Assembly: GCA_963971285.1 (NCBI GenBank) | Contig: OZ020254.1 | Coordinates: forward strand, 18,754,932-18,818,931 | Source of the DNA: Astropecten irregularis | Lineage: Eukaryota; Echinodermata; Asteroidea; Paxillosida; Astropectinidae | DNA: 64,000 nt | Direction of reading: 5' to 3' | Shown: positions 30,389 to 55,557 of the stretch, in pieces | Numbering within the stretch: position 1 is the stretch's first letter | How the letters are laid out: each line of letters begins with the position of its first letter | The notes under the pieces: generated by a model | Told to the model about the DNA's origin: nothing | Seen by the model: the letters and a program-made list of their open reading frames with translations, nothing else | Database searches by the model: none | Program-made: the position numbers and the translations under genes

Positions 30389-31184
30389 GGTTTGACTTTA
30401 TTCAACATGGTTCAGCCTAATCTCAACTGATGCCAAGATCACAGATGCTGTCAAGGCAACCAGTCATTTAACAGGTACCAGCCATCCAGCCAGTCATCCA
30501 ACCAGTCAAAGCATTCAGAACTATCCTACAAGACTACCTCCCCACCTGCCGGGGAGCCAGCCAACCAGCCTTCCAACCAACCTGTCAACCAACTGGACAG
30601 CTTTCTGGTTTGCTTGGAGACAGTCACCAGCCATCCAGCCAGTCATCCAACCAGTCAAAGCAGTCATGACTATCCTACAAGACTACCTACCAGGCTACCA
30701 ACCAACCAACCTGCTAATCAGCCAACCAGCCTGCCAACCTGCCAACCAACTGGACAACTTTCTGGTTTATTGGGGAGACAGTCTCCAGCCATCCAGCCAA
30801 CCAGTCATAGCATTCATGACTATCCTACAACTACAAGACTACCTACCAGCCAACCAACCTGCCAGCCAACCTGCCAGCCAACCTGCCAGCCTGCCAGCCT
30901 GCCGGGGAGCCAGCCAACCAGCCTGCCGACCAGCATGCCGACCAGCCAACCAGCCAACCGAACAGCCAGCCGACCAGCCTGCGGGGGAGCCTGTCGAGGA
31001 GCCAGCCAACCAGCCTGCCGACCAGCCGGACAGTCAACCAACTGGACAGCTCCCCGGTATATGGAAGACAGTCACCAGCCACCCAGCCATTGAGAGTGTG
31101 ACTGTCCAACTAGCCAGCCTCTAAGAAAGCAGTCATCCAGCCATTCAGCCAGCCAAGAAGATGCCTTACTTGGATTGGGACAGG
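30389..31184 (+). repeat. Left-arm exon-like block, CCAGC-rich minisatellite
   Basis: Bounded by TTTTTTTCACAG and AGGTAC splice-like signals. Filled with CAGTCATCCAACCAG / CCAGCCAACCAGCC units; ends AAGAAGATGCCTTACTTGGA and GGGACAG. The right-arm equivalent (54,331-55,357, minus strand) is bounded by GATGTTGCAG and GGTAAATT and ends with the same conserved tail, though its repeat interior has expanded differently. Open in all frames because of the repeat; no protein claimed. Confidence 0.65.
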
Positions 31185-31478
31185 TACATTTGAACAATTA
31201 TTGATAGATTTTCAGACTTGTTCATCCATACTTTATTATCAGTTACTGATGTTAGGCTGATGGTAGGTTAGTTTACCTGGGGACCACTTGAGAACAACCA
31301 TCCATTTATCTTATGGGACATGTAGTTTAGACGTTTAGTTTTTTACCAGGTGGTACTTGCAGGACTAAAATACGGATGTACTTCGTGAAATGAGACAGTG
31401 GCCGATGTGCTGTTTGATTCAGTTTCATTTGCAATTTTGTTAACTCTCTGTTAATTTCCAATGTTGTTTTCTTGTCAC

Positions 31479-31710
31479 AGGTTCGATCTTAGTCAACTTT
31501 GCTGGACCTGATGTCCTGATCTGAGCTGATGCCAGACCCCCTGATTCCAGCAAGGCAACCAGTTATCTGTCCATCAGTCAAGGGAGACAGTCATCATGCA
31601 GCCACCTAGCCCAGCCATCTAGTCTGACTGTTCAACTAGCCATCCCCTTAGGAAGCAGTCATCCAGTTATTCAGCCAGCCAAGAAGATGCTACACTTGGA
31701 CTGCCACAGG
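31479..31710 (+). other. Left-arm second exon-like block
   Basis: Begins after TTCTTGTCACAG with GTTCGATCTTAGTCAAC and ends CCACAG before GTACGAA; the tail AAGAAGATGCTACACTTGGA resembles the end of the previous block, so these look like duplicated exons. The right arm keeps the acceptor and start (near 54,087 down, minus strand) but diverges after about 60 bp. A further conserved acceptor (GTATTAG then GTGATCTTGTCAAGGC) is at about 32,037 and mirrored at about 53,325. Likely noncoding. Confidence 0.45.
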
Positions 31711-32741
31711 TACGAAATAGAAGTCATACATTCACAAAATAACCACAAGGGAAACTGACGAGATTGATATTGAAAAGTCATTGAAAAGTTGACACAGAAA
31801 AGTTGAAGCGGGATTCGAACCAGCCATCACCCTTTCAGTGACTTTAAATATATCCAGTCAGTTTCCCTTTTTGATGATTATTTCATGTACATGCGAGTGC
31901 GGTTCTGTGACCTTCACCAAATATGTTATTCCTTAAAACAACAAATGGTCCATCAATGAATTTATGTTTGATGTTTATTTAGTCAGTTTATGTAAAATTA
32001 TTTACCAAATTATGTATCTTTGACTGTATTAGGTGATCTTGTCAAGGCATTCTACCAATGAGATGTCACCCATTCCAGTGATGTTGCCTGTCCAGTACTA
32101 GAGTCATCATAAAGTAAATAGAATTATTTCATTGATTATTGCAACAATATTTGTGCATTAGAATTGTAAGTTTTTATGTAACTATGTAATGTCAGATGTT
32201 AATGTAGGTGGTAAATCTCAGCAGGATTACTCCTAAAAACTTGCAGCTATCAGGCTCCTCTGGTGGGATTTGAACCAGGGACTATTAGGTTACTGCTTAG
32301 GCATGTTAATTTGTGGAGCTTACATTGTGAAGTAGAGAACTCAATCTACATTGGTTCCTCTGGTGGGATTTGAACTAGAGACCCTGTTTATGCTCATAGG
32401 TGAGAGTTTAGGTGATCAAAGACAATTGTGTGATTGTGGTGAATGATGGCAGATCCACATGGTGCCCCTGGTGGGATTTGAACCAGACACCCCTTAACTT
32501 GAAAACAAAAAAACTGTTAAATGAACCTTTTCTTGTGAACCTAGCTAACCAAGTGGGCTTTGGTTTACCTCCATACATTGACATCTAGTTTTGTTTATTT
32601 CATTGATGTGTAATTTATTGTATCATACATTTGTATTTTGTGCTTGTTGTACTGGAGAAACACTCAATGCTATGACAGCTGAATGTTCGTGTTAATCATT
32701 GCTGAACAAGGAAAGGATTATTCGTTGCGGTAATTACAGTT

Positions 32742-33072
32742 AAGGAAAAAGGTGATCGATGTCACGCGATGTTGTATTGCTGGTAGCGATGTTTCGGCTG
32801 CTGGAACTGTACATCCCCGGATTCCGGCTTCCCACCATCCAGCAACATGACCACCGCAAGGCCACTGACTGAACCACCGAAGCCACACCAAGGACACGCC
32901 CCCAACCACCCACGGAGTGAAGCTTACGACGCCCACCCAAGCGGACCAACAGGATATAACAGACACCGCAGCATACAGTTCTTCAGTTGCCTGATGAAGG
33001 CTAGCAGTTCCAACAGCCGAAACGTCGCTACCAGCAACACAACATCACGTGACATCGCTCACCTATTTCCTT
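32742..33072. repeat. Foldback element, left-arm copy
   Basis: Ends AAGGAAAAAGGTGATCGATG and the complement CACCTATTTCCTT, with inner mirrored TGCTGGTAGCGA / TCGCTACCAGCA and GTTTCGGCTGCTGGAACTG blocks. Same element at the mirror position 52,167-52,479, so it was present before the arms separated. Confidence 0.75.
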
Positions 33073-35109
33073 ATTGCTGAACAAGTTGGCTTTTGCAATT
33101 TATGTAAAAAAAAATTCAAATTCTTGCCTGAGATGGCCATGATATGATGAGGAAAATAATTTGTAGATTTGGTCTTTCTTGGTCCAAACTATGTACAGGT
33201 TTTATGCATACAAACAAATGCCAACAACTCTTAAACTTGTGAATTTCGTCAAATGCCGTGTAAAGTGGTCATGTGCATTGTGTGTTTCTGACAGCTAGAT
33301 AGGGTTTATGTCAAAGTTGGGATGGATTCATGATATTTGAGTATTTTTTTTTTAAGTCCTTGGTGGCAAATCAATTTCAATTCTGTATTGTGTGTCACAC
33401 CTTGTGTCCATATAACACAAACAGAATTTCCCCTGGGTGGGAACCGTTCATCAGGTCCACTTGTTACTTTGTATTTTTGCTCATGTTAGTCCCTTTTCCC
33501 CTGGTTGGGGCAACTTTCCACAATGATCAGGCTTTTCCTCTGAAACATTCTAAATGTGGCATTTGTGAATCCCCAATTCTACCATCAAGTTTGATCATGC
33601 TGCAGCGCCATCAGTTTTGTTTTGGACATTTCACTTTCCTCATTTCCTTCACAAATGGATCCATCCCTTCTCATTGTAAAAGGTTCTAAAACTTGCATCT
33701 ATAGTGGTTTAGGATTTGGTATCACATTTAGACGTGTAGAAAATATCCATTTTTATTTCCCTTTCTTGCATAAATTAACTTGAGAGCTATTTTGGAACTT
33801 TTTTCTCTATTTGATCTCCATTTCTAAAACTTCAATTCTAGTCATTTTTGGAATTGTTCTGAAATGTCAGCATCATTTTCCTCTTCATGGACATAATGCA
33901 TGTAATTAGACAGTATTGAGTCCATATGTTTTCACTCATTATCCCTCTGCATATTTCACATAAATTTCTCATCCTCAATTTCAAACTCTTACCAGTTGTA
34001 CCCCTGGGTGGGACTTGAAACAAACCTTTTTTATGGCAAAATTCTATCTCCACATAATATTTGAATGTGATTCACAATCCTGAACCATATCTTTGCTAAG
34101 GAATCTTAAGTATATTGTTTTTGCGTGTTTTAGGGGTCATTGATTTGAAGTGATAGGAGTTGAAGTTTGTGTCTGATGTCAAAAAAATATGGGTTTGATA
34201 AAAGTTTCAAATTCATCTTTCAAAAATTCTTTTCAAATTCTTGTAATCGAATCACGGATCATTTATGGGTTGGGTACATATTATTTATCACATTTTTATT
34301 CTTTTTTCTTGTCTTGGTTTTCATTTTTTTTTTGGGGGGGGTTGCAATGATTTTTGTTTTGCAAAATTCTTTTCCAGACCTTATGAGCAACTCCATCATT
34401 TGAAATGAATGCACTCTAAAATTCTATTTTATTGCCTTTTTCTTAAAAATGTTTTCTCTTTGTGGGTGTGTGAGTTTCTCCAACAGACAGATTGATCATG
34501 CGCTGCTATGCAACAATAACAAGCTAAAATTCTTATGTACTCGTACAAGAAAATGCATGAAAATTCATGCAGAATCGCTGAAATAAGCATGCATGTCTTT
34601 GTTCATGTTGCGCGCTCAATACTATCATTTTCTACATACAAATGCTACGTTAAAAAAAAAAAATTATTCAAAACTTCTTCGATATCATGACAAAATTGAT
34701 TTTTGCAAGCAAATCTAAAATGATCTATTTAAAACTAAAGACACCAAAAGCATTTTTTTTTTCATCAGGACAACTCCCAAAATTAATGTTTCCTACAAAA
34801 ATTATGTGCCAAATTCCTTGAACTGTGTGTATCTTAAAATTCAAAACTTTTTCAAAACATCATGACAAAATTGATTGATGGAAACAAAATCTAAAAATGA
34901 TCTTTTCAAAACTAAAGTTGCCAAAAGCAACTTTCCTATCAGGACAGAACAAAACCTTTCTTGTTTAAAATGTTCTTCCCATGTAGATTGACACATGTTA
35001 AGGAGCTGATATCAACTCTGTTTGTTGGAGTAATTCTCATACTGTTAATTAAAACTGTTCTAATCTGCTGTTAAAGTGTTTAAATCCTGTACAGATCAAA
35101 TACACATAG

Positions 35110-35700
35110 GAAAGAAGCTCAGACGAGCATGTGAGTGCCGGTTGGTGCGTTCCTCTGCTGTCTATAGGATGTGGAGCAACTTTAATGACCCGGGTGCATT
35201 GGTTGATATGCGTCAGCTTGAGTGAAACCTGTCTTCAGTGTTGCTGGTATTCTACTCTGTAAGTGTTCTGCCTCACATGATTTGACAAGCTCATACCCAA
35301 ATTCTGCTTGCGGCAAAAACTAGAAGAAAGGAATTGATTGTTGTACACTAAGATGCTGATAGCGCTTGTATGATTGGTGCGAAGGACAGAGGACCCTTTT
35401 TTTCGCACAGTTTTTTTCGCACTGATACTTTTGTTATCCTAAGTTGGTACCCTTCATCTTACTGTTCCTGTGTAACCAGGTCTCTTTTTAGGCCGGTCAT
35501 GATGACCAACCCTTTTGCATAGGACATCTGCTTCTGATCTGAGGGGGCTCTTGACCTGATAGATGATGGTGACCTCTGCTCAGTTGTTGATGTGATGATT
35601 AGAGAAACAGTTTTTTGGCATTGCTGGTTTACTTCGTTACAGTTCTCAGGTTTTGACCATTGGTTTCACTTGTGTAGTAGAAATTAGGGTTGTGTAGGAA
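35110..35700. repeat. Diverged inverted partner of 37,640-38,290 inside the left arm
   Basis: GTGCCGGTTGGTGCG, TTTAATGACCC, GTGTTGCTGGTATTCTACTC and TTCACTTGTGTAGTAGAA recur in reverse complement at 37,640-38,290 in the same arm, roughly 65-70% identical by eye, centred near 36,700. Both are mirrored in the right arm (49,530-50,070 and 47,010-47,680), so the unit occurs four times in alternating orientation. Confidence 0.65.
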
Positions 35701-36923
35701 GGCAAGAGGGACCACTTAAAATATTAAGCAAGCTGTAGTGCTGTGGTAAAATGATAACATAAAAATAAATATATAATTTTACTAAGAAGACCACAGTAAT
35801 TTAACCAATGGACAGAAATTAAAATAAGCTAAAATAACCATAATGTAACCAAATCTTCATATTAACTTCACCCTAAAAATACTGACAAAATCAGTACATT
35901 TACCGCGATTGAAATTTTAAAAAAACTTAGTGAAAACATATAAAAGAATAATCTGATAACAATAACGAAATATGCAAATAATTTATCACCCTTCACTGAC
36001 ATAGATATGCATTTCACTAAATGCTTTTTGAGAGCACATGAACAAATCATGCGCTGGCTCAGGTGGGGTTTCGAACCCACGACCTCCTGCTTATTAGTGC
36101 AGATGCAACGAAAAAAATAAGGAACAAACCAATATGAGGGCATTTTTAGAAGCCTCAAATATAAATGGCCAAAATGCAGATGATGTTGCAGCAGAAAGAA
36201 ATAATAATAAAAAAAATATCAAGTTAAAGAAAGATACACAATACAAGTAATAAACTGCTGCAAACTGCTCATCATCCAAAATAATATAATAAATATCAAA
36301 TGTTTAGCTTTCCATAAAAATGAATGATCCTGCTAGGATCGAAATGGTCAGGGCCCTCCTAACTCCAAGCATTTATGAAAGATACATTAACTTCAACCTA
36401 AATATTAGTTTGTGATTTTAAATAATAATTCTATTATTCTATTCTATTTCATCCTTAAAAAAACTCACTGAACAATTTCCAGTATAAATGTAATGTAAAT
36501 AATCTGTAAGGACATGCATCTTCACAACATTTTAACTAATATGCATCAAGATTAATTTATTCGTGCAGATCCAGAATAAATCAATAAATCACTCTAAACT
36601 ATTAATGCTACCAGTACCATAGGATACCTTGATACTTGAGACTAGAGAATGCAATAGGTTTAGGATTCCTAAACCTATGATACACCATCTATCTACATTA
36701 GGAGTCAATTCACTTAAGTTCACTTCAGTATTTATTTCCACATAGGAAAACATATTGATAAATGCAGTATAATTATCAAGATTAAAAAAAAAGCAAGAAC
36801 TAAATAAAAACATTTAAAAACAATCATAAAAGGCAACAAAATGAATAGGTTAGAACAATAGGTATAAAAATGGCCATCAACAAAAACATAGACGATCCAT
36901 GTTACAACAGAAACAAATAATAA

Positions 36924-36959
36924 CCAGACATTTAAGTGTTCGTCCCATGGACGAACACT
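36924..36959 (-). repeat. Helitron-like 3' terminus in the left arm
   Basis: A 10-bp perfect stem AGTGTTCGTC / GACGAACACT with 5-nt loop. On the minus strand it is followed by TAAATGT-CTGG and T. The mirror in the right arm (48,331-48,360) has a decayed stem but ends CTAG then T. Nearby GATGTCATAATGACATCATC and ACTTGGTGGGTA-type motifs resemble the element at 16.8-17.9 kb. Suggestive of a nonautonomous Helitron. Confidence 0.45.
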
Positions 36960-37863
36960 AAGCTGTTCCGATTTTGTTTCAATTGGCTTATTAGGCTGCT
37001 ACCAGAGAATTGTCTATATCTGTAAGCACGGATTCTACACTTAGAGTAAGCAATGCCCTTCAGACGATGGCTTCTACACATTGTATGAATTTCCTATTTC
37101 AATGCATATTTGCATCCGTAGCTATGGTTACAAAAATGTCATCGACAATGGACGTTTTTTCTCAATATCTGATGATGTCATAATGACATCATCATTAAAT
37201 AGGTAGATTATAGGTAGATCATACACACTGAGTTTCAAGGTGGCAGCATGCATATCTACAGCAATCTGTAGGAATGCTATTGTGCTAACAAATTGATTAA
37301 CCAATTAAGCATTTAAATGACTCTCACATGCCTAAATAATTAATTGATGAAGAAAATAAGTTTTCAATGCAAATTTGCCAGATAAGCTCTCATATTATTT
37401 ACCTTTAGAGCTTTTAAAATAAAGCTAAGTATAAGTAGTGAATGAAATAATAATCCAAACATGATGTTAATAATAAATAAAAATAAAAAGAAGGAAATAA
37501 TCACAAGCTATTTAAAACTTGTTCCACCCTGGAACACATCGGATTAGCCAATCAAATTTGAGCACCAGGATATAATTCAAAGTTAAGGTATAAAATTAAC
37601 AGATAAATGTAAAAAATACTGGTAGCATTCTTCTATTACACAAGTGAAACCAAGAAATCCATGAGGACATGATTGTTTCATTGCTGCGCATGAGTTCATG
37701 TTTTTTCAGTGGGGAATTTTTGATTCAGAATACATAAACTATCAAATTTGGGGGCAAAAACATTAATTCAAAATTTGAAGTAAGCTGCATGTTGAAATTT
37801 TGTTTCTCTGGTCAGCACATCATCATCTGGGCTGAAGTTGTTGTCATTTTGAAGGTCAAGGAC

Positions 37864-38124
37864 TCAATTAGTGATGGAGTGGAAGTGTCCAAATGAATCG
37901 GTCTTTATTTTTGCTTTTTTGCCACCAAAGTTCACAACCAAAATGTCTTCTAAGAACATATAGCGGCCTGGTTGCCCGAACAGGGGGTGAAGTCTGAAGT
38001 ACACCCATGCAGGTCTATTAAGATTAAAGTGTACAACAATGAATCCTTTTTGAGCTTTGTTCAGGCCTTTGTTAGTCTTTACAATGCGCGGCATTTGCAT
38101 GCCAACAAAAGCCTGCATAGGCAA
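37864..38124 (-). pseudogene. Left-arm open frame of unknown family
   Basis: Protein-like stretch VYFRLHPLFGQPGRYMFLED, VVNFGGKKAKIKTD. The right-arm copy (47,160-47,420, + strand) is interrupted by a stop and frameshifts, and the more distant copies near 35.1 and 50.0 kb are not open. No family recognised. Probably a remnant; weak evidence of coding. Confidence 0.3.
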
Positions 38125-38719
38125 TGAGCTTGTTGAAATGTGTGTTGCAGAACGCCTATGGAGCAGAATACCAGGAACACTAAGTCTGGTTTCAACTCAA
38201 GAGGGCGCTTTATCAGCCGATGTACTTGGGTCATTAAGTTGCTTCATGTTCTGGACAGTAGAGGGCGCACCAACCGGCACTTGCATTTAAAAAAAAAATA
38301 ATAAAAAAAATAATTGACACGATAGACAGTGATCTCTTTTTGCATTTTTATTTTGTCAATACTTTAACTACCCCCTCTATGTACAAATATGTGTGGTTAA
38401 CCAAGAGTACACTTAACTGGTTTTAAAGGGACTACATTGCAAACAGCATCTCTGAAAAATGGACAACAGTAAGAGGGCGCTATTTCAGCAGACTTTATCC
38501 AGCATCAACAGCGCCCTCTCGCTATGAACCATTTTCAAAGATGCTTATTGAAACAGTTCCAACAATACAAACTTCTGGCAATTTCCATGTGACCTCCATA
38601 CATATTAACCTGACACAGCACAGAGGTCATATGTAAATTACCTAAAGGTTGTATGACTGGGACACATTTCAACTTGCAATGCAGACCCTTTGCAAAGATG
38701 CCATTTAAAACCTAACCTA

Positions 38720-39411
38720 TGACCTTGTTTTTCTTATTACAGCGCAAGCAATGCACGAGAATATGAAGGCTTGTATGAATGAGAGAACTTGCAAATTAGC
38801 AGAACAGATGCAAAGAATATCGACTTTTGAATGTTGACGCGCATATCTAAGTTTCTTTCTTTGTATTTGCAGGAAAGTGTTTTGGTATGCAACACGATGA
38901 TTCTAACGTGAATGAACAAAGTCAAGCAATACGCAATAGCGTTCCGCACTAATGACGTCACACCATGCATGCACGCGCACACATACCCCCACTCAATGCA
39001 CGTTTGCATGGCCAGTTGCAATGTTTGTCCGAGGTTCGGTGCTATTTTTAGTGCAAGTGCGCAGTGCTATTCTGATGTTACTTTTGAATGTTGACGCGCA
39101 TATCAAAGTTTCTTTCTTTGTATTCCTTTTTGTATTTGCAGGAAAGTGCTTTTGGGTGTAACACGATGATTCTAATGCGAACGAACAAAGTCAAGCAATA
39201 CGCAATTCTGATGTTACTTTTGAATGTTGATGCAGATATCATAGTTTCTTTCTTTGTATTCCTTTTTGTATTTGCAGGAAAATGCTCTTGTATGCAACAC
39301 GATGATTCTAATGTGGACGAACAAAGTCAAGCAATACGCAATTCTGATGTTGGAGCGCAGACAATTTGGAAAGGTCATAGAATAATACATGAATGGATCG
39401 GCACCCTTTAA
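38720..39411 (+). pseudogene. Tandem exon-like units, left arm
   Basis: Three ~136-bp units, each with TTTGTATTTGCAG (acceptor-like) followed by a frame reading GKC..., QHDDSNV and EQSQAIRN. The last runs on to SDVGAQTIWKGHRII and a stop at 39,409-39,411. The first copy is broken by a MITE at 38,935-39,071 and the second by an extra base. The right arm has three mirrored units (46,090-46,460, minus strand). Unknown protein; could be a terminal coding exon or noncoding satellite. Confidence 0.35.
38935..39071. repeat. 137-bp MITE inside the first tandem unit
   Basis: Ends AATAGCGTTCCGCACT and AGTGCGCAGTGCTATT. Neighbouring units show the uninterrupted site (ACGCAATTCTGATG), which defines the insertion. 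A related element with the same termini sits at a non-mirrored place in the right arm (44,047-44,225), so the two are separate insertions. Confidence 0.75.
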
Positions 39412-41172
39412 ACCAGTAGTAACCTGCTACCTTAAGTGAGTCAGATTCAAATTGTCGCTTGAGAATTTGGTTTCCTTTTTCTCTAAACCCAAATGAAAAA
39501 TGTGCAATTCAAAATGAAAAATGTATCAGGAACTAAGTAATTATTTTGGATGATAATTTTTTTTTTCGCTGTGCAATGTGTAAAAAGTCAGGTGAATATT
39601 TCTGGCTGGAAATGTATTTGCAAAACAGTTGATTTCAGATGCAGGTTATTAAATATTTTAAAGATTGTGGGCACTGCGCATGCACATAAAACAAATTGAA
39701 AGCATAATTTGTAAAATGCCAAGAAAAGTTGTCAATTTTAGCACAAGTAATACTTATTTGAATTTGCTTGAAACCGACTCAGTTTATGGTAACAGATTAC
39801 ATGTACCTATGGTTAACCACTTAAGGTATGGTGACAATTTGCCAGCTGATAACGTAACTCTTGTTAATTGTTGATGAGGTTTTTTGTTTATTATTCCAAA
39901 ATTGCACCAAATAACCTTATTTCATGAAAAATACTTTTCTATGCAGCTGAATAGTAGCCGAACAATGTTGCACTATTTGACACAAAACCATCTCAGAATC
40001 AACTGTCAAATTTGTGACTTTTGGACATGTACAATCTAGAGCCCTTTTGTGAAAAAAAAACGATTTTGTTCAGTACATGGGCCATTTTTTAAGAGAAAAA
40101 TCAAAATTTTCTATAAAGTATTTATTTTTTGTAATTTCAAAAATCTTTCAAGAAAATACCTTTCACTTAATATTCATTCATTGTGACAGCTTAAATCATT
40201 ACTTAAAAAGATAGGTAACAAGGTCAAGGATATCAACTGGCAAATTACCAACCATTCACATCGTTTCAATGCAATGCCAAAAAAAGACTGGAATCTGGTC
40301 AATAACGCGCATTTCTAATACTTCATTACTGCTCAATTTGTAAGTTTGGTACATGCACATGAATCAATCTAATTTTAGATTGTAACAGATTTGCATAGAA
40401 TTCAATAATTGCTTGCGTTTGATACTCATCAACGAAAACTATAAGTACTTCAGGTCCATTTTGTTTGGTAGTGACAAGAATTTTCATATTCTGAATAAAT
40501 TTAAAAGCCAAAAAATGGCACACAATTGAAAAGTTGAAAGGAAAATTTCAAAAAGAACACTTGGCCTAAAATTCTTTGCCACATTTATTTCAAAGTAAAT
40601 ATGACCAGATACCAGAATTATTTTGGTTCAAATAAAGCACACAACAAATGAGTGCACCAGGCACTCATATCTTTAATCACTTCAATGTACAATAACTGTT
40701 AACGAGTCCATCTAACTGTGAAACACAGTTTGCCAAATTCAGTCCTTGAAGTTGCATATTGCATTGTAAAGTTTCTTCCAAGGCAGGAGTCTCTGGTTCA
40801 GATGGAGGCATAAATATTTCTTGAATATTTTGATGTTAAATTGATATCTGGTAGCTGAAGAAATGTCGAGTTGTCCAAACAAATGCCGACACTTCACTTC
40901 TGATGTCATTCAGGTAGATTTACACGGAAGTCATCTCTTGCGTCTTTAAAGCCAGACCATCTCAGCATTTTAAAGATCTGAACAAGAAACAAAACAGAAT
41001 ATTATTTACATAAAATATTATGCTTCTTTGAAATGGAAATTAACTTGAGCAGAATGCACATTCTGGGAATCTTTCGCAAATGCCGAGAACAACCCTTCTG
41101 TGATTGAAAATTGAAATACTAGACACCCCTTTCTTTTTAATTGCTTTTAAAAACCTGGTAGTTTTCATGTTC

Positions 41173-41543
41173 TTAAAGGAAGTATCATACTTTGGTAAGA
41201 AACCAAAACAGAAATGTTCACAGATTTACGTATTACTTTTAGGGTATGAAGATGGTGCTGGTAGAAACCCACCGTTAAAATTGTTTTGCCTGAAATGGTG
41301 TGTTTATCCAGAAATTAGTAAAACAATGACCGAAACTCTAATTTTTGATCTTTTAAAAGATCAAAAATAAAAGAGAAAAGACTTAAGAAATACTGTGGCA
41401 GTTTTTCACGATTTTCTCAAAAAAAAATGGGCACCGTATGGGACTGAAATTTTCACAGATGACTGCGACTGTATCTTCCTTGATATTTTTGCCCATGAAT
41501 CTGTACTTCTTTGACAAAAACCAAAGTATGATACTACCTTTAA
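41173..41543. repeat. TTAA MITE, left arm only, with empty site in the right arm
   Basis: Flank plus element: GTTC-TTAA-AGGAAGTATCATACTTTGG ... CCAAAGTATGATACTACCT-TTAA-AGAG. The right arm at the mirror position (43,979-43,993) reads, in reverse complement, ATGTTC-TTAA-AGAGT with no element. This shows a TTAA target duplication and places insertion after the arms existed. Confidence 0.9.
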
Positions 41544-41660
41544 AGAGTGGAAGAGTTGCACAGATGACCATTTACAAAATATTTTCAAATTGTGTGTGTG
41601 ATTTTAGGCAGAAATATGTACATGTATATGGAAGTCTGAAATCTGAGCTGTTTCTCAGAC

Positions 41661-41668
41661 AATAAAGA
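41661..41668 (+). terminator. Inward polyadenylation-type signal, left arm
   Basis: TTTCTCAGACAATAAAGAAT contains AATAAA just outside the centre. The right arm has the mirror (ATTCTTTATTGTCTGAGAAA near 43,677-43,696, AATAAA on minus). Any transcripts of the exon-like blocks would thus converge and end ~0.6-1 kb from the centre. Confidence 0.35.
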
Positions 41669-41842
41669 ATATTGTTGAAAAATGACCTAAGCCATTGTGA
41701 CTTCAATTGTGTGACTTCATTGTTATAATTGTTTTATTCCCTTAACATCTCTGTTAAAAATGTGTTTTATAAAGAACTACAAGTCCTAATGTTATTAACA
41801 TTATAAGGTGATTATTGTAAGCATACGGTTGAATGTTTCAGC

Positions 41843-42199
41843 CTAAAAACGGCATGGTGCCACACATTGCGGCTCTCGGCAATAAATTGTCATAATTTGG
41901 TCAGGAGAGTAATAAAACCTACCCTTTTGGCGTTCAGTGTTTCTTAAAAGACAGACCAAGTCAAGAGCTTTCTCAAAATAACGGGAACCTTCCATTTTAT
42001 TGGAGTTTGTAAAAACATGGATGAAGAAATTGGTGTGATTTCTCCCGTGGAGCAGACATGGTGTTACCTCGACGGAACGCAGGCGTGAAATGGCGCGTCT
42101 TGATTTGAACAAAGCATTATTCCCATCATGCTCTAAAAACCATTCAGAATCACTGGGGCATTCAATAAAACAGCGCCCTCTATCTATTGTTTCAGGCAA
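41843..42199 (-). pseudogene. Left-arm copy of an outward-reading frame next to the centre
   Basis: About 118 codons starting PETIDRGRCFIECPSDSEW and including RRAISRLRSVEVT and FFIHVFTNSNKMEGSR. The right-arm copy (43,134-43,508) is ~96% identical in DNA. Of the dozen or so differences most change the amino acid, and a short indel shifts the frame of the last ~15 residues. No family recognised; no sign of protein-level constraint. Confidence 0.35.
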
Positions 42200-42233
42200 A
42201 AAACAATAAGCTTGAGGCTACGTCACTCTGTTG

Positions 42234-43114: not shown

Positions 43115-43133
43115 CAACAAAGCAACGTAGCCC

Positions 43134-43508
43134 TTGGCCTATTGTTTTTTGCCTGAAACAATAGATAGAGGGCGCTGTTTTATTGAATGCCCCAGTGATT
43201 CTGAATGGATTTTAGAGCATGATGGGAATAATGCTTTGTTCAAATCAAGACGCGCCATTTCACGCCTGCGTTCAGTCGAGGTAACACGATGTCTGCACCA
43301 CGGGAGAAATCACACCAATTTCTTCATCCATGTTTTCACAAACTCCAATAAAATGGAAGGTTCCCGCCATATTGAGAAAGCTCTTGACTTGATTTGTCTT
43401 TTAAGAAACTCTGAAGGCCAAAAGGGTAGGTTTTATTACTCTCCTGACCAAATTATTATATTATTGCCGAGAGCCGCAATGTGTGGCACCATGCCGTTTT
43501 TAGGCTGA
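43134..43508 (+). pseudogene. Right-arm copy of the outward-reading frame
   Basis: Same frame as 41,843-42,199, opening PETIDRGRCFIECPSDSEW; the extra N-terminal MAYCFL comes from arm DNA outside the shared frame and is probably not real. Ends differently from the left copy because of the indel near 43,461. Function unknown. Confidence 0.35.
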
Positions 43509-43802
43509 AACATTCAACCATATGCTTACAATATCACCTTATAATCTTAATAACCTTACTGTAGAAGGCATATATTTTCTTATCAAACACATTAGACAAA
43601 GATGTTAAAGAAATGAAACATTAATAACAAAGAGGACAAATTTAAGTCACAAAGTCTTAGGTAATTTTTCAACAGTATTCTTTATTGTCTGAGAAACAGC
43701 TCAGATCTCTGGCTTCCATATACTACATATTCCTGCCTAAATCACATACGAAATTCCAAACCATTTGTAAATTCAGGGAAAGACTTTCATATATATTTTT
43801 AG

Positions 43803-43939
43803 GCATTCCCGGAGATTAGTCCACTCTGGTTAGCTGGTACCCAGACCCAACAGATGAAGAGTCATATCTAGTAGAGTTTAATTACTGTAGGAGCTGGGTA
43901 CCAGCTAAAGTACCAGTGTGGACTAATCTCCAGGAATGC
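43803..43939. repeat. 137-bp hairpin MITE, right arm only
   Basis: Ends GCATTCCCGGAGATTAGTCC and GGACTAATCTCCAGGAATGC, inner mirrored AGCTGGTACCCA / TGGGTACCAGCT. Absent at the mirror place in the left arm (about 41,560-41,610). Its interior CCCAGACCCAACAGATGAAG resembles a segment near 572-600. Confidence 0.8.
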
Positions 43940-44046
43940 TGATTTTTCAGACTTTCATAGTGATGGTCATCTGTGGAACTCTTTAAGAACATGACAACTA
44001 CCATGACAAAAACAGCAATTAAAAGGAAAAGAGTGCCTAGTGTTTC

Positions 44047-44225
44047 AATAGCACTCCGCACTTGTGCTAAAAATAGCACACCGGAACTCAGACAAAATTA
44101 CATTGCAACCATGCAAATGTGTGGTATGTGCGCGTGCATGCATGGTGTACACTACATGCGTGAGTCAATGTTTGTCTGACATCCGGCCGGGGACTCGTGT
44201 CACGTCATTAGTGCGGTACGCTATT
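44047..44225. repeat. MITE related to 38,935-39,071
   Basis: Ends AATAGCACTCCGCACT and AGTGCGGTACGCTATT. Interior contains CATGCATGGTG and GTGCGCGTGCATG, shared with the left-arm copy. Its own mirror position in the left arm is empty. Confidence 0.7.
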
Positions 44226-46089
44226 TTCAATCACAGCAGGGTTGTTCTCAGCATTTGTGAAAGATTCCCAGAATATGCATTCTGCTCAAATTAATTTCCA
44301 TTTCAAAGAAGCATTATATTTGTGATGTCTGAAAAATCACTGTTTTTCTTTCTTTGTTCAGATCCTTAAAAGGCTGAGATGGTTTGACTTTGGAGACGCA
44401 AGAGATGACTTCCGTGTAAATCTACCTGAATGACATCAGAAGTGAAGTGTCGGCATACGTTTGGACATCTCAACATTTCTTCAGCTACAAGATCTCAATT
44501 TAACATCAAAAGATGGAAGAAATATTTCAAAGTATTCTACAAAAGTATCTTCAAACATCAGAAGTAAATCTTGAGGATTGCCACATGACAGAATTCTTTT
44601 ACCAAGATGAACATAAACAACCTATTCATTTGTAGAAAAACTGGAGCGTTCAACTTTATTTAAGAAATATTTTTGCCTCCATCTGAACCAGAGACTCCTG
44701 CCTTGGAAGAAACTTTAAAACTTCAAGGACTGAATTTGGCAAACTGTGTTTCACAGTTAGATGGACTCGTTAACAGTTATTGTACATTGAAGTGATTAAA
44801 GATATGAGTGCCTGGTGCACTCAGTTGTTGTGTGCTTTATTTGAACCAAAATAATTCTGGTATCTGGTCATGTTCACTTTCACATAGCTGCGGCAAAGAC
44901 TTTTAGGCCAAGCGTTCTTTTTGGAATTTTCTTTTCAACTGTTCAGGTTTCTTTTTTTGTTTTAAATTTATTCAGAAAATTTAAATTCTTTTCACTACCA
45001 AAAAATGAAAAAGCTTGAAAAACCTGAAAAAACTTGTAGATTTCATTGACGAGTACCAAATGCAAGTAGTTATTGAATTTTACGCAAATCTGTTACAATC
45101 TGAGAGCAAAAATCGACGGTGTTTAACATGACTTCATATGCATGTAGCAAAACTTACAAATGCACGTTATTGACCAGATTCCAGTCTTTTTTTGGCATTT
45201 GCATTGAAACGATGTGAATGGTTGGTAATTTGCCAGTTGATATCCTTGACCTTGTTACCTATCTTTTCAAGTAATGATTTAAGCTGTCACGATAGATTTT
45301 TGGAATTAAAAAAAAGAAATGCATTAAAGAAAATCTTGATTTGTCTCAACAAATGGCCCATGTACTGATCAAAATCAAATATTTTTAATAGCAGTAGATT
45401 GTACATCTCCAAAATTCGAAAATTAGACGGTTGATTCTGAGATGGTTGTGTTAAATAGTGCAACATTGTTCAGCAACTATTCAGCTGCAAACAAAGTAAT
45501 TTTCATTCAATAAGGATGTTTGGGGCAATTTGGGAATAATAAACACAAATTCTCAACAATTAACAAGAGTCAGGTTATCAGCTGGCAAATTGTCACCATA
45601 CCTTAAGTGGTTAACCATAAGTACATGTAACCTGTTACCATTAACTGAGTCAGTAAGCGAATTCAAATAAGTATTACTTGTGCTAAAATAGACAACCTCT
45701 CTTGGCATTTTGAAATTTATTTTTTTCATTTGTATGATGTGCCCAATTTCTTTTTAAAAAATCAAATAACCTGCATCTGAAATCAACTGTTTGTTTTGCA
45801 AATACATTTCCGGCCAGAAATTTTCACCTGACTTTTTACACATTGCAGAGCGAAAAAAAAAATTCATCCTCCAAAATAATTTTGGATACATTTTTCATTT
45901 CAAGTTACGCATTTTTTATTTTCAATTGCGCATTTTACGTTTGGGTTTTAGAGAAAAAGAAAACTAAATTCTCAAGTGACAATTTGAATCTGACTCACTT
46001 AAGGTAGCAGGTTACTACTGGTTTAAAGGGTGCCGATCCATACATGTATATTATTCTTTGACCTTTCCAAATTGTCTGCGCTCCAACAT

Positions 46090-46460
46090 CAGAATTGCGT
46101 ATTGCTTGACTTTGTTCGTTCACATTAGAATCATCGTGTTGCACCCAAAAGCACTTTCCTGCAAATACAAAAAGGAATACAAAGAAAGAAACTTAGATAT
46201 GCGCGTCAACATTCAAAAGTAACATCAGAAATGCGTATTGCTTGACTTTGTTCGTTCACATTAGAATCATCGTGTTGCACCCAAAAGCACTTTTCTGCAA
46301 ATACAAAAAGGAATACAAAGAAAGAAACTTTGATATGCGCTTCAACATTCAAAAATAACATCAGAATTGCGTATTTGCTTGACTTTGTTCGTTCACATTA
46401 GAATCATCGTGTTGCACCCCCAAAAAAGAAACTTTGATATGTGCGTCAACATTCAAAAGT
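46090..46460 (-). repeat. Right-arm tandem units mirroring 38.8-39.4 kb
   Basis: Three ~136-bp units (TTGACTTTGTTCGTTCACAT ... GCACTTTCCTGCAAATAC), the third shortened. Read on the minus strand the first keeps the frame GKC, QHDDSNV, EQSQAIRNSDVGAQTIWKG and then ends differently from the left-arm copy. Confidence 0.7.
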
Positions 46461-49400
46461 CATTCTTTGCATCTGTTCTGCTATTTTGCAAGTTCTCTTA
46501 TTCAAACGAACATAAAAACTAAAAATTTCTTTTGCTTTAGTTGCGCTATAATGAGAAAAATAAGGTCATAGGTTAGGTTTTAAATGGCATCTTTGCAAAG
46601 GGTCTGCATTGCAAGTTGAATTGTGTCCCAGTCATACAACCTTTAGGTAATTTACATATGACCTCTGTGCAGTGCCAGGTTAATGTGTATGGAGGTCACA
46701 TGGAAATTGCCAGAAGTTTGTATTGTTGGAACTGTTTCAATAAGCATCTTTGAAAATGGTTCATAGCGAGAGGGCGCTGTTGATGCAGGATAAAGTCTGC
46801 TCAAATAGCGCCCTCTTACTGTTGTCCATTTTTCAGAGAGGCTGTTTGCAATGAAGTCCCTTTAAAACCAGTTAAGTGTACTCTTGGTTAACCACACATA
46901 TTTGTACATAGAGGGGGTACTTCAGGTATTGACAAAATAAAAATGCAAAAAGAGATCACTGTCTGTTGTGTCAATTATTTTTTTTATTATTTTTTTTTTA
47001 ATTGCAAGTGCCGGTTGGTGCGCCCTCTGCTGTCCAGAACATGAAGCAACTTAATGACCCAAGTATATCGGCTGATAAAGCGCCCTCTTGAGTTGAAACC
47101 AGACTTAGTGTTCCTGGTATTCTGCTCCATAGGCGTTCTGCAACACACATTTCAACAACCTCATTGCCTATGCAGGCTTTTGTTGGCATGCAAATGCCGC
47201 GCATTGAAAAGACTAACAAAGCCTGAACAAAGCTCAGAAAGGATTCATTGTTGTACACTTAAATCTTAATAGACCTGCATGGGTGTACTTCAGACTTCAC
47301 CCCCTGTTCGGGCAACCAGGCCACTATGTTCTTAGAAGACATTTTGGGGGTAAACTTTGGGGTAAAAAAAGGAAAAAATAAAGACCGATTCATTTGGACA
47401 CTTCCACTCCATCACTAATTGAGTCCTTGACCTTCAAAATGACAACAACTTCAGCCCAGATGATGATGTGCTGACCAGAGAAACAAAATTTCAACATGCA
47501 GCTTACTTAAAATTTTGGATTAACTTTTTTTACCCCCAAATTTGATAATTTTTATATGCATTCTGAATCAAAATGTACCCACTGAAAAAACATGAACTCA
47601 TATGCGCAGTAATGAAACAATCATGTCCTCATGGATTTCTTGGTTTTACTTGTGTAATAGAAGAATGTTATCCTATTATTTTCTACGCTAATCACTTAAT
47701 ACCTTAACTTAACCTTTAACTGGCCTGATGCTTAAATTTGTATTTAAATTTGCTGTTCTGATACGTTCCAGGTTGGAACAGGTTTCAAATAGCTTGGGAT
47801 TTTTTTAGTTATTTCTTTTCATAATTAATTATCACCCTCCTCACTTTTTTGTTGCATCTTCTTCTTATTCTTAGCTTTATTTTAAGAGCGTCAAAGTTAA
47901 ATCCTATGTAAGCTTATCAGATATCAAATCTGCAATGAAAACTGATTTTGTTTAATGTTCCATCAATTAGGCATGTGACAGTCGTTTAAATGTTTAATTA
48001 ATTAATTTTGTTAGCACCCTTTTTTTTTTTAAATAGCATTGCTACAGATTGCTGTAGATATGCATGCTGCCACGAAAATTATTGTGACATCATCATGACG
48101 TCATCAAAAAGACAATTTCTACTTTATCCCCTCTACAACGGCTAATCACCTTGAAACTTGGTGGGTATGATCAAAATGTTTCTTATAATTTACCAGTTAT
48201 TATGATGTCATTATGACATCATCAGATTTTTACTTGATAACTTGGCAATAACTGCTAAATCGGTACATATGGAAATAGACAATTCACTGTTATCAGCCTA
48301 ATAAGCAACTTAAGACAAATCGGAACAGCTAAGTGTTTGTCCAAGAGATAAATGTCTAGTTATTATTTGTTTCTGTTGCAATATAGTCATTTCTATACAA
48401 GCCTATTAGGGCATCTGAAAATGCCGAATATTAGTTTATTCCATTTTGTTACAGTGATCTAATTATTTTTAATCTCATTAATCATACTGACTTTGTCAAT
48501 ATGTTTACCTATGTGGAGATAAATACTGCAAAGTGAACTAAAGTGAATTGAATCCTAATGTAGATAGATGGTTTATACCATAGGTTTAGGAATCCTAGAC
48601 CTAGTGCCTTTCTCTTTCAAAATCTAGATTACTGGTTTCCTACGTTAGTATATTTTTCAAACTAATTGACTGATTATTATTGATGTGTTTAAATAAACCT
48701 GATTAATTTTTGATAAAATATGGCGTACACTAGTCAAAATGTTGAGAGGACCACTGGTTACATAACGCCTTGATGCGACTCATTAAAGATTATTTACATG
48801 GATTTTACTGGAAATTGTTCATTTGTTTCGGGTTTTTTAGGTGAAAAATGTTCTTGTGTTCCGACTACCCTATTAGAATTGAAGTATCATTCCCTAAGTT
48901 TGATTTGATTACTATTTGTTATTTTTATTATTATTATTATCAATCATCCGCATGATTTTTGTCTAAGGCCATAGCCCAATTTTTATGGAAATGCCCCATT
49001 ATTGATTTGTTTAGATATTAATAATGTTATTATTCTTATGATTTCCTTATTGTGATCTGATTATTCCTTATTGTTTTTATTTAGTTTTTGTATGTTTTCA
49101 ATCTCAATTATTGTACTGACTTTATCAGTATTTTTTAGGGTTACATTTATATAAAGATATTAAACTTGCTGTGGATATATTATGGTTATTTCAGCCTTTT
49201 TTGTTTCTGTCCTTTGGTTAAATCACAGTGGCCTTCTTAGCAAGACTCAATATCAACTGTTTCCAAACTGAAGAAAATTATGCTCATCTACATCGGTGAA
49301 GGGTAATAAATTATTTGCATATTTTGTTATTGTTATCTGATTATTCTTTGATATATAGTTATTTTAGCTTATTTTAATTTCTGTCCTTTGGTTAAATTAC

Positions 49401-50202
49401 TGTGGTCTTCTTACTAAAATTTAATATTTATTTTTATGTTATCATTTTATCACAGCACTACAGCTTGCTTTATATTTTAAGTGGTCCCTCTTGCCTTCCT
49501 ACACAACCCTAATTTCTACTACACAAGTGAAACCAATGGTCAAAACCTGAGAACTGTAACAAAGTAAACCAGCAATGCCAAAAAACTGTTTCTCTAATCA
49601 TCACATCAACAACTGAGTAGAGGTCACCATCATCTATCAGGTCAAGAGCCCCCTCAGATCAGAAGCAGATGTCCTATGCAAAAGGGTTGGTCATCGTGAC
49701 CGGCCTAAAAAGAGACCTGGTTACACAGGAACAGTAAGATGAAGGGTACCAACTTAGGATAACAAAAGTATCAGTGCGAAAAAAACTGTGCGAAAAAAGG
49801 GTCCTCTGTCCTTCGCACCAATCATACAAGCGCTATCAGCATCTTAGTGTACAACAATCAATTCCTTTCTTCTAGTTTTTGCCGCAAGCAGAATTTGGGT
49901 ATGAGCTTGTCAAATCATGTGAGGCAGAACACTTACAGAGTAGAATACCAGCAACACTGAAGACAGGTTTCACTCAAGCTGACGCATATCAACCAATGCA
50001 CCCGGGTCATTAAAGTTGCTCCACATCCTATAGACAGCAGAGGAACGCACCAACCGGCACTCACATGCTCGTCTGAGCTTCTTTCCTATGTGTATTTGAT
50101 CTGTACAGGATTTAAACACTTTAACAACAGATTATAACAGTTTGAAATAACAGTATGAGAATTACTCCAACAAACAGAGTTGATATCAGCTCCTTAATAT
50201 GT

Positions 50203-50583
50203 GTCAATCTACATGGGAAGAAAATTTTAGACAAGACAGGTTTTGTTCTGTCCTGATGAAAAATTGCTTTTGGCAACTTTAGTTTTGAAAAGATTATTTT
50301 AGATTTTGTTGGCAAAAATACATTTTGTCATGATGTTTTGAAAAAGTTTCGAATTTTCAGATACACACAGTCCAAGGGATTTGGCACACAATTTAGTAGG
50401 AAACATCGGTATTTCGAGAGCAACACGAGCAAATATTCGCAGCTTTTTCGGTGCTTCTGCATGAATATTCATGCATTTTCGTGTATGTGTACATACAATT
50501 TTAGTTGTGTCAATCTACATGGGAAGAACATTTTAGACAAGACAGGTTTTGTTCTGTCCTGATGAAAAATTGCTTTTGGCGTT
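50203..50583. repeat. Local duplication in the right arm
   Basis: TGTGTCAATCTACATGGGAAG and GACAAGACAGGTTTTGTTCT occur at about 50,203-50,290 and again at 50,507-50,583. The left arm has one version (34,920-35,010), so this duplication is private to the right arm. Confidence 0.7.
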
Positions 50584-52166
50584 TGCAGTTTTGGAAAGAA
50601 CATAAATAAATTTTGTCATGTTTTTGAAAACGTTTTGAATTTTAAGATTAACAAAGTTCAGGCCATGAAATAATAGTATTGAGTGTGAAATATGCAAATA
50701 TATACTAGTTTTTCAGTGGTTCTGCATGAATTTTCATGCATTTTCTTGTACGAGACTACAAGTACATACAATTTTATGTAGTTAGTTATTGTTGCATAGC
50801 ATGCAGCGCATGATCAATCTGTCTGTTGAAGAAACTCACATACCGACATGCAGAAAACATTTTTTAAACAGCAATAATATAGAATTTTAGAGTGCATTCA
50901 CTTGAAATGATGGAGTTGATCATACGGTCTTTAAAACAATTTTTGGAAAAATTCCCCCCCCCCAAAAAAAAAAAAAAACATGAAAAGAATAAAAAAGAAC
51001 AAAAAAAAAACCCGAAAATGAATAAAAAAGAATTTGAAAAGTATAAATTTGAAACTTTTGTCAAACCCACATTTTGGACATCAGACACATACAACTCCTG
51101 TCACTTGAAATGAATGAACCCTAAAAACGTGTACATACATAGTAAGAAAATATGGTTCAGGATTGTGAATCACATTCTAACATAAAATGGAGATGGAATT
51201 TTGCTATAAAAAAGGTTTGTTTCAAGTCCCACCCAGGGGTACAATTGGTAAGAGTCTGAGATTGTGCAGAGGATGAGAAATTTATGCAGAAAATGTAGAA
51301 AGGATTATGAGTGAAACATACTGTCTCAATACTATCTAAATACATGTTTTATGTCCATGAAGAGGATTGATGCTGACATTTCAGAACAATTCCAAAAATG
51401 ACTAGAATTGATGTTTTAGAACTAGAGATCAAACGATGGAAAAGACTTCCAAAAAAGCTCTGAAAAAATTGATGACAGAAAGTAGTGATAATTGATCTTT
51501 TTTTCAACTCTAAACAGCTTAACTGTGATACCAAATCCTGAACCACTATGCAAGTTGAAATATTTTACAATGAGAAGGGATGGATCCATTTGTGAAAGAA
51601 ATTACGAAAGTGAAGTGGATAACAAATTGATGGTGCAGCAGCATGATAAAAATTTGATGGTAGAATTTGGAAATCATACTAAGAATGTTTCAGAGAAAAA
51701 GCCTGATCATTGTGGAAAGTTGCCCCAACCAGGGGAAAAGGGACTAACATGAGCAAAAATACAAAGTAGCAAGTGGACCTGATAAATAGTTCCCACCCAG
51801 GAGAAATTGTTTTGTGTTATATGGACACAAGGTGTGACACACAATACATAATTGATTTGCCACCAAGGCAGTGTGATAATTTGGGGACTTAAATACTACT
51901 ACAATGTCATGAATCCATCCCAACTTTGACATAAACCCTAGCTTGCTGTCAGAAACACACAATGCACATGACCACTTTACACTGCATTTGACAAAATTCA
52001 CAAGTTTAAGAGTTGTTGGCATTTGTTTGTATGCATTAAACCTGTACATAGTTTTGAGTTAAGAAAGACCAAATCTAAAAATTATTTTCCTCTTCATATC
52101 ATGGCCATCTCAGGCAAGAATTTGAATTTTTTTAGATAAATTGCAAAAGCCAACTTGTTCAGCAAT

Positions 52167-52479
52167 AAGGAAAAAGGTGATCGATGTCACGCGGTGTTGT
52201 GTTGCTGGTAGCGACGCTTGGGCTGCTGGAACTGCTAGCCTTCATCAGGCAACTGAAGAACTGGATGCAGCAGTGTCACTCTGGTGGGCGTTGGATGCTT
52301 CACTCCGTGGGTGGTTGGGGGCGGGTCCTCGGCGTGGCTTCGGTGGTTCCGTCAGTGGCGTTGTGGTGGTCATGTTGCCGGATGGTGAGAAGGCAGAATC
52401 CGGGGATGTAGCAATTCCAGCAGCTGAAACGTCGCTACCAGCAACACAACATCGCGTGACATCGATCACCTTTTTCCTT
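52167..52479. repeat. Foldback element, right-arm copy
   Basis: Mirror of 32,742-33,072: AAGGAAAAAGGTGATCGATG ... GATCACCTTTTTCCTT. A 120-codon open frame over it is a product of the foldback sequence and is not called as a gene. Confidence 0.75.
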
Positions 52480-54330
52480 AACTGTAATTTCCGCGATGAA
52501 TAATCCTTTCCTTGTTCAGCAATGATTAACACAAACATTCAGCTGTCATAGCATTGAGTATTTCTTCAGTACAGCAAGCAAACAATACAAATGTATGACA
52601 ATAAATTACACATCAATGAAGTAAACAAAACTAGATGTCAATGTATGGAGGTAAACCAAAGCCCACTTGGTTAGCTAGGCTCATAAGGTAAGGTTCATTT
52701 CATAGTTTTTCAGTTGAGGGGTGTCTGGTTCAAATCCCACCAGGGGCACCATGTGGATCTGCCATCATTCACCACTGTCACAAAATTGTCTTTGATCACC
52801 TTAACTCTCACCTATGAGCATAAACTGGGTTTCTGGTTCAAATCCCACCAGAGGCACCAATGTGGATTGGGTTTTCACTTGATCAGACAAGTTTATTCAA
52901 TAATCTAACCTAACGTTTCTGGTTCAAATCCCACCAGAGGAACTATATCAGTGTTGAAATCCTTATGTCAAAGTAATTGTCTTTCAGCAATGCTACACAT
53001 TCTTGATCACAGAATTGTTGTTGTTTTGGGTTTTTCTCTTGAAGATATTTGGTTGGTCTCTGGTTCAAATCCCACCAGAGGAGCCTGATAGCTGCAAGTT
53101 TTTATGAGTAATCCTACTGAGATTTACCACCTACATTGACATCCGACATTACATAGTTACATAATTACATAAAAAACTTACAATTCTAATGCACAAATAT
53201 TGTAGTAATAATAGATAAAATAATTCAATTTACTTTATGATGACTCCTTCTAGTACTGGACAGGCAACATCACTTGAATGGGTGACATCTCATTGGTAGA
53301 ATGCCTTGACAAGATCACCTAATACAATAATAGAAATAGAGAGAGATTGGTTAACCATTTAACACGCACTGATATGACTATGTACATCCATAACAAATAC
53401 AAATTCATTTCAATTGTTTGTTTTACAGGAAAACACATGATTAGTTGAAATCATTAGTTGAGGTGGAAAGTAGAAGAGAGGGTCTTAGCCAAAGAGAGCT
53501 TCAGGCGCTGAAGATGTTGTGAGTGAGGGAATCTGTCCAGGATGCAAAGTCAAGGTCTGGGTTGGACATGAAAGATGATGAGTCTTTTGGGTTAAATAGA
53601 AGCACACCATCGGCTGAGGAAGACCACTCTGCTAGGAATTCGCCATCTTAGGGTGAGGTCTTGTATCCCTAGTCAATGCATTGGCTATTGAAGTCGTTAG
53701 TAGTGAGCCTTGGTCTACTCTGCTCGCTGGTGGCTTGTAGACATTGATTACAGTCGTCTCTTTGTACCTTGGTGGCGATCCACTCAACCTCTTCACGAAA
53801 CATTGTGTCTGTTCACATGTCACAAAAGACTCATGACTATCTGTGAAGATTCCTGTTTTTGGATCTTTCCAGTCATGTGTTATCCTTTTTAAGGTTAAAC
53901 ATCTTGACTAACATTTAGCAGTAGAAGTCACACTTACTTGATTGATGGATAACTGATATCAGATGATGCTCATAGTACCAGCCATGTTGTGTACTGATGG
54001 GAAATACAGTGAGTACAGGCGCTGGTATGTAGGGTCTTGGCATCAGTTGAGATCAGGCTGAGCCAGGTTGAAAAAGATCTAACCTGTGATCATAAGAAAA
54101 CAACATTAAAATAATTTAATGCAATGAGATCACAATGTACATGTACTAACAAGTACCAGCCAAACATCAGTGACTGACAAGGTACAGGAATGGAAATTCA
54201 TTAACTCCTGGTTCAAATTCCCCAGAACTTAATTGTGATAGCAATAAATCGTAGTAACTCAATAATAGGCCAAAGGTAAGATACATGAGATGAACAAGTC
54301 TAAGAATGATTCAATACTTGTCAAAATTTA

Positions 54331-55357
54331 CCTGTCCCAATCCAAGTATGCCATCTTCTTGAATAGATGGGTGACTGCTTGTTGCTGCTTCCCAAGAGGC
54401 TGGCTGGTTGGACAGTCACACTCTCACTGGTTTGATGACTCCAAGGATGGCTGGTGACTGTCTTTCCTTGTTAGACTAGATGGCTGGGCTGACTGGTTAG
54501 CTGGCTCCCTCGGTGGATGGTCATAGTCTTACTGGTTTGATGACTCCAAGGATGACTGGTGACTGTCTTTCCATGTTAGACTAGATGGCTAGGCTGGCTG
54601 GTTAGCTGGCTCCCTAGTTGGATGGTCATAGTCTTACTGGTTTGATGACTCCAAGGATGACTGGTGACTGTCTTTTCTTGTTGGACTAGATGGCTGGGCT
54701 GGCTGGTTAGCTGGCTCCCTAGTTGGATGGTCATAGTCTTACTGGTTTGATGACTCCAAGGATGACTGGTGACTGTCTTTCCTTGTTAGACTAGATGGCT
54801 GGGTTGGCTGGTTAGCTGGCTCCCTAGTTGGATGGTCATAGTCTTACTGGTTTGATGACTCCAAGGATGGCTGGTGTCTGTCTTTCCTTGTTAGACTAGA
54901 TGGCTGGGCTGGCTGGTTGGCTGACTCCCTAGTTGGATGGTCATAGTTTCACTGGTTTGATGACTCCAAGGATGACTGGTGACTGTCTTTCCTTGTTAGA
55001 CTAGATGGCTGGGTTGGCTGGTTAGCTGGCTCCCTAGTTGGATGGTGACAGTGTTACTGGTTTGATGACTCCAAGGATGACTGGTGACTGGCAGACAAGA
55101 TAGCTGGTTGGAAGGCTGGTGACTGTCTCTCCTGATGGACAGCCAGATGACTGGTTGTGTTGGTGGTTTACTTGCTGGGTAGCTGAGTGGGTCACATTAC
55201 ATGGTTGTACCCTTTGTAGATGGACAACCAGCAAGCCCATTCTCTATCTGGCTGGGTAGAATTAGTCATAGGTCATCTTCCACTAGGTCTGTGGCTGGTG
55301 ATGGATGAATTTCCCATGGTCTGCTGTTTCAAACAGATCTCTCATTGTGGCTCACTG
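54331..55357 (-). repeat. Right-arm exon-like block, CCAGC-rich (minus strand)
   Basis: Units of ~120 bp carrying, on the + strand, GGCTGGTTAGCTGGCTCCCT and TTTGATGACTCCAAGGATGA repeat about seven times (54,400-55,080). Minus-strand edges are acceptor-like (GATGTTGCAG) and donor-like (GGGACAG-GTAAAT). The unit sequence differs from the left arm's shorter repeats although the exon ends are conserved. Confidence 0.65.
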
Positions 55358-55557
55358 CAACATCAAACAATAAAGACGGGAACATTTCTTTAAAAGCAAT
55401 GGATTTTGGACAGATTCGGGAAAATTTGAATGTAAAAAGTAAGAAGAATGCCAGAGTCTTTTTCTTCAAGATCCACTGAACAATTCCAACTCACAGAACA
55501 AAAATTCCCATGGTTGGAGCTATAGTAATAATTCACAGTGAAGTGCACAGAAATTGG

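Follow-up and report, generated by a model that had tools for sequence, protein, structure and literature searches.

Within a 64,000-nucleotide stretch of the genome of the sea star Astropecten irregularis (GenBank assembly GCA_963971285.1, contig OZ020254.1, positions 18,754,932 to 18,818,931 of the forward strand; hereafter the window), two long arms lie as inverted, collinear copies of each other about an axis near position 42,674. We interpret this palindrome as an old inverted segmental duplication. It would probably have begun when short inverted repeats folded back, and arm-to-arm conversion would since have rewritten it in patches; we put the probability of this reading at about 65%. 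The palindrome is real, yet it is less regular and less strange than an earlier note on this DNA had described. It is an already known kind of genome structure, and the palindrome as such requires no assumed function.

In the course of events we favor, a broken or stalled end would have folded back at short inverted repeats that are now in the centre, and copying of the folded-back end would have produced the mirror copy. The arms would then have diverged by substitution and transposon insertion, and occasional gene conversion between them would have overwritten short tracts, with 35070-35724 the most recent of them and 37938-38726 an earlier one. Fold-back and copying are steps that we infer here from the anatomy of the palindrome.

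Extent and patchy divergence of the arms

Self-comparison of the window revealed the long inverted collinear similarity. When the left half (30300-42673) was compared by blastn with the reverse complement of the right half (42675-55450), 34 pieces were obtained, summing to 11,722 bits, the longest of them spanning 2,350 columns. Reversal of the right half without complementing gave 0 blastn pieces and the direct orientation gave 6 (533 bits), so the inverted similarity is not due to chance. Global alignment and island extraction delimit a robust left arm at 32025-42337 (forward strand) and, as its inverted copy, a robust right arm at 43012-53326 (reverse strand). The inverted collinear arms of the proposed giant palindrome are therefore present about ~42,674, but they are robust over ~10.3 kb each and not over the ~12.3 kb proposed.

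As had been claimed, the outer flanks do not match. Only 2 of the 85 inverted pairs not wholly within the palindrome fall within 150 bases of the axis sum (21749-22059/63598-63279 and 25969-26063/59464-59369), and a symmetry reaching beyond the arms was rejected because both of these on-axis matches belong to a dispersed repeat that recurs elsewhere in the window. What we find, then, is two collinear inverted copies with unrelated outer flanks, the arrangement that defines an inverted segmental duplication.

Between the robust arms and the flanks lie two weakly alignable outer zones. The left zone (30384-32024, forward strand) holds CCAGCCAACC-type low-complexity repeats, which have a 12-bp period at 30845-31027, and splice-like sites pointing inward; the right zone (53327-55357, reverse strand) holds a 105-bp tandem repeat (6.5 copies, 54407-55090), so the repeat units of the two zones, 12 bp and 105 bp, are unlike. 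Exons in these zones are inferred by eye from splice-like sites alone. Discrete ends had been placed at 30389 and 55357, but these two positions do not align to each other, and reliable collinearity stops at 32025 and 53326. Positions 30384-30438 align at 87% with 54089-54035 and not with 55357, and what 55090-55360 shares with the left zone is limited to short matches (31-82 bases). Both proposed ends are, as judged by eye, acceptor-like sites inside or adjoining CCAGCCAACC-type repeat-rich sequence. Repeated 'GGTGGGATTTGAACCAG' stretches occur in both arms (32240-32500 and 52720-53090) and by eye look like a tRNA T arm, of the kind found in short interspersed elements derived from tRNAs.

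The 21 alignable islands shared by the arms comprise 7209 ungapped aligned columns with 477 mismatches (6.6%). Islands were picked for similarity, and non-island columns as well as 30300-32024 were removed before mismatches were counted; since the columns left out align worse (identity is just 45-69% at 30300-32049 in the global alignment of the arms), 6.6% is lower than the divergence of whole arms. Similarity had been thought to peak at the centre and fall outward. Instead, divergence is unrelated to distance from the axis (Spearman rho -0.005, p 0.97; 72 windows of 100 aligned columns, islands only), the best tract lies ~7 kb off the axis, and a fall is seen only in the outermost ~1.7 kb. 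The suggestion of stepwise growth is likewise unsupported. Gradients and sharp ends that are judged by eye in large repeats evidently call for an alignment.

Divergence is patchy along the arms, as a change-point scan indicates. The best-preserved tract, 35070-35724, carries 3 mismatches in 654 ungapped columns; it is noncoding and a candidate gene-conversion tract. Its right-arm partner lies at 49472-50125, with ends taken from the differences listed in the alignment. Mismatches at its sides amount to 192/2354 outside (8.2%) and 61/816 inside (7.5%), and its change-point gain is 35.5 in log-likelihood, compared to 5.4-10.5 in 12 shuffles. Uninterrupted identity reaches its greatest length at 35069-35499, over 430 ungapped columns with one 1-bp indel inside; in 2000 shuffles no run exceeded 196. 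A second tract of low divergence, 37938-38726, has 21 mismatches in 786 columns (2.7%), and the scan returned a further low stretch at 40139-40473 (2/150 mismatches) along with high ones at 39854-40138 (41/272), 40474-40601 (about 20% of 122 columns) and 41692-41790 (about 25% of 94). These shuffles rule out uniform divergence and do not separate conversion from selection. Abrupt low-divergence tracts between arms are what a palindrome under gene conversion would carry, and selection is also possible.

The arms also evolve separately: as had been noticed before, each has its own insertions, with empty sites opposite, a pattern that two alleles could share. Confined to the left arm is an inverted-repeat element at 41173-41543 (forward strand) with TTAA at both ends, a trait of piggyBac-type elements; opposite it the right arm has an uninterrupted site with one TTAA, within 43979-43990. 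This element has 11 other matching stretches, in ~8 places elsewhere in the window. A short element at 38938-39068 (forward strand), again only in the left arm, has its empty site near 46367 in the right arm, and a related element at another place, 44050-44222 (reverse strand), is only in the right arm and has its empty site near 41110 in the left. Both have AT on both sides and ends set by eye, and they match each other at 78% over 76 columns and at 93% over 29. A self-complementary stretch of the right arm, 43803-43939, has no left-arm match and is read as an insertion. The inverted-repeat element at 41173-41543 is dispersed across the window, with copies of roughly 350 bp at 1407-1763, 8053-8234, 10124-10792, 21748-22066, 25958-26264, 41173-41543, 59354-59891, 62055-62404 and 63243-63812.

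A structured centre

Folding and motif matches identify the centre (42234-43114) as a quasi-palindrome of ~880 bp with five quasi-palindromic units of ~105 bp. These are P1 (42234-42338, forward), P2 (42435-42539, reverse), the decayed P3 (42575-42680), P4 (42887-42991, forward) and P5 (43011-43114, reverse), the last of which mirrors P1 about the arm axis. Four of the five out-fold all of their 200 shuffles (0/200 as low for P1, at -29.5 kcal/mol, and likewise for P2, P4 and P5); the exception is P3, with 31/200 as low. As single-stranded DNA, 42220-43130 forms one long hairpin of -254.2 kcal/mol, against a mean of -94.5 for 20 shuffles, none of which folds as low, and the structured centre that had been proposed is thereby borne out. 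Mean column identity among the units is 77%. Their outer motif (up to 3 mismatches) has 11 of its 12 window matches in the centre, and their inner stem has 4 of 4 there. The axis has both a spacer and short inverted repeats, as would be expected if fold-back initiated the inverted duplication.

Paired cells make up 83.1% of the units compared to 36-43% in slid versions, a difference that is expected because the structure was taken from one of the units. We read the hairpin as a by-product of the duplication that may also have been its trigger.

Conversion, constraint and rival explanations

In both arms each of the six frames of the best tract is interrupted by stops, and the GC content of the left-arm copy is 0.43, where the adjoining kilobases have 0.31 and 0.30, as GC-biased conversion would give. 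Conversion tracts in mammalian palindromes are typically tens of bases to 1 kb in length and GC-biased (PMC3723533; this and the other papers cited are drawn on in excerpt), and the best tract fits them in both respects. Gene conversion, suggested earlier from the sequence by inspection, thus gains support from an abrupt tract of 654 columns with 3 mismatches.

Protein-coding islands were considered and rejected, as 34938-35842, 38001-38850 and their right-arm partners have stops in all frames. The open reading frame (ORF) at 37864-38196 does not stay intact in the right arm, where it is shifted and interrupted. Coding is possible at 41843-42217, where an ORF is open in both arms (124 and 125 aa); its 19 mismatches are spread over the phases as 8, 4 and 7, with no clear third-position excess. 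Stop-to-stop frames of at least 70 aa overlapping 30000-55400 number 47. Ten frames, six from the palindrome and four from the flanks, were scanned against Pfam, and just a low-complexity PT repeat at 30396-31121 came out above the cut-off. No convincing gene was found in the arms with these six frames against Pfam, the arm ORFs not having been run against protein databases. At gathering scores no Rfam family was found in the palindrome, the two tRNAs detected both lying outside it, and a microRNA match in the centre is below threshold (E 1.1).

Several points weigh against an old duplication rewritten by conversion. The presence and absence of insertions would also fit two alleles, and the choice of islands by similarity depresses the mean divergence. 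As read from the sequence, it is the position of the central units alone that suggests a fold-back origin; these units could have multiplied after the duplication, and they are unequally placed, three to the left and two to the right of the axis. Compensatory change in them shows no excess (3 of 39 pairs change on both sides, a value that 486 of 500 shuffles reach), so selection for the central hairpin is unsupported. The low-divergence tracts could be conserved noncoding sequence and not conversion tracts, and a functional stretch could have raised GC just as well. In 34938-35842, in addition, the 18 mismatches fall unevenly on the phases (1, 11, 6), as they might in coding sequence, though every frame has stops.

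These last points lead to an explanation that covers the tracts alone and is compatible with an old inverted duplication, namely an inverted RNA-gene or gene pair whose functional noncoding exons, at 35.07-35.72 and 37.94-38.73 kb, are under purifying selection. The splice-like sites (by eye), an AATAAA at 35764 just past the best tract, the GC-richness of the tracts and the uneven mismatch phases would all suit such exons. We nevertheless regard them as unlikely, given the stops in every frame of both arms, the lack of an Rfam family in the palindrome and an RNA fold of 34950-35842 that is no better than shuffles (20/20 fold at least as well). Divergence also drops ~17-fold over the 654 noncoding columns of the best tract, and selection could achieve this only if almost all sites were constrained.

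Two further explanations concern the palindrome as a whole. An assembly fold-back, in which the two haplotypes of a single locus, or a chimeric read, were joined inversely, would account for insertions in one copy that are missing in the other, as these are also expected of two alleles, and heterozygosity is often high in marine invertebrates such as sea stars. Yet a single molecule that had simply been folded would yield near-identical arms, and the divergence observed (6.6% in selected islands, 15-25% in three short stretches, with poorly alignable segments besides) is greater than the usual allelic difference, a general yardstick. Together with outer flanks that differ and a low-divergence tract too abrupt for uniform divergence, this makes an artefact rather improbable. 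Last, the nested inverted repeats and the low-complexity tandem repeats near both outer ends bring to mind a transposable element of foldback type but giant size, in which the terminal inverted repeats would measure ~12 kb and the outer tandem repeats would resemble the repeat-rich ends of foldback elements. Such an element is highly improbable here: the proposed ends are unalignable and share no terminus, so that a target-site duplication cannot be defined, the outer repeat units differ (12 bp versus 105 bp), and the six palindrome frames scanned of the 47 gave no Pfam match save the PT repeat.

Neighbouring features and relation to known structures

Other features were observed in and around the palindrome. 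A 136-bp tandem repeat is present in both arms, at 39069-39351 (2.1 copies) and 46085-46419 (2.5 copies), with acceptor-like sites inside (by eye). The window has 14 AGAGGGCGC motifs over both strands, a motif that we take to resemble the core of CTCF sites. Ten of the 14 are in the palindrome, mirrored between the arms, at 38200, 38260, 38472, 38511, 42173, 43167, 46769, 46808, 47020 and 47080. Outside the palindrome, the product of a reverse-strand ORF (58254-59048) was compared with 2080 candidate proteins. Just three passed E ≤ 0.001, all uncharacterised and from sea stars: Patiria miniata (61%), Acanthaster planci (58%) and Asterias amurensis (48%), in keeping with a sea-star source for the window. 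At 4244-4317 (forward) and 15663-15736 (reverse), tRNA-Thr is predicted with a GGT anticodon, which is unusual for an animal threonine tRNA gene; both are possibly tRNA-derived repeats. Frames at 18922-20526 resemble C-type lectin exons by eye.

The earlier note had held that nothing of this form is described. Large inverted duplications (PMC3907307) and palindromes under conversion (PMC3723533) are, however, on record. From the human germline come reports of large inverted duplications whose junction holds a spacer and short inverted repeats (PMC3907307), and in both human (PMC3907307) and yeast (PMC10622511) it is documented that inverted duplications can arise when inverted repeats fold back. 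Like these, the palindrome consists of inverted copies about a short centre with short inverted repeats; unlike them, it is interstitial in the window and its islands are 6.6% diverged, whereas those duplications, as excerpted, are new and pass through a dicentric intermediate.

Mammalian sex-chromosome palindromes likewise combine large inverted arms with apparent conversion tracts (PMC3723533; PMC8981503). Their arms are described as >99% identical, which by alignment and island counts does not hold over the full length of the arms here, where such identity is confined to patches. Nor is the palindrome known to be sex-linked, and its arms yielded no convincing gene (six frames against Pfam). 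A further comparison is with foldback transposons, of which Tetris of Drosophila virilis (PMC4079207, in excerpt) is an example. In general these have long inverted repeats with sub-repeats, a trait that the palindrome shares; it differs in that the whole unit is without a definable terminus or target-site duplication. In open-licence PubMed Central we found no paper on inverted segmental duplication in a sea-star genome assembly, and no comparable structure in a sea star was among the matches listed, which is not to claim its absence from print.

There is an outside chance that we are looking at a long-lived non-mammalian palindrome, in which patchy conversion rescues only short noncoding tracts and the nested palindrome centre (105 bp, 880 bp and about 21 kb) acts as a standing fold-back site that repeatedly draws the arms together. 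If an old inverted duplication with arm-to-arm conversion is the correct reading, the window would hold a natural echinoderm palindrome whose arms record divergence, insertion and local rewriting. The length and bias of conversion tracts would then become measurable once a second individual or species is compared.

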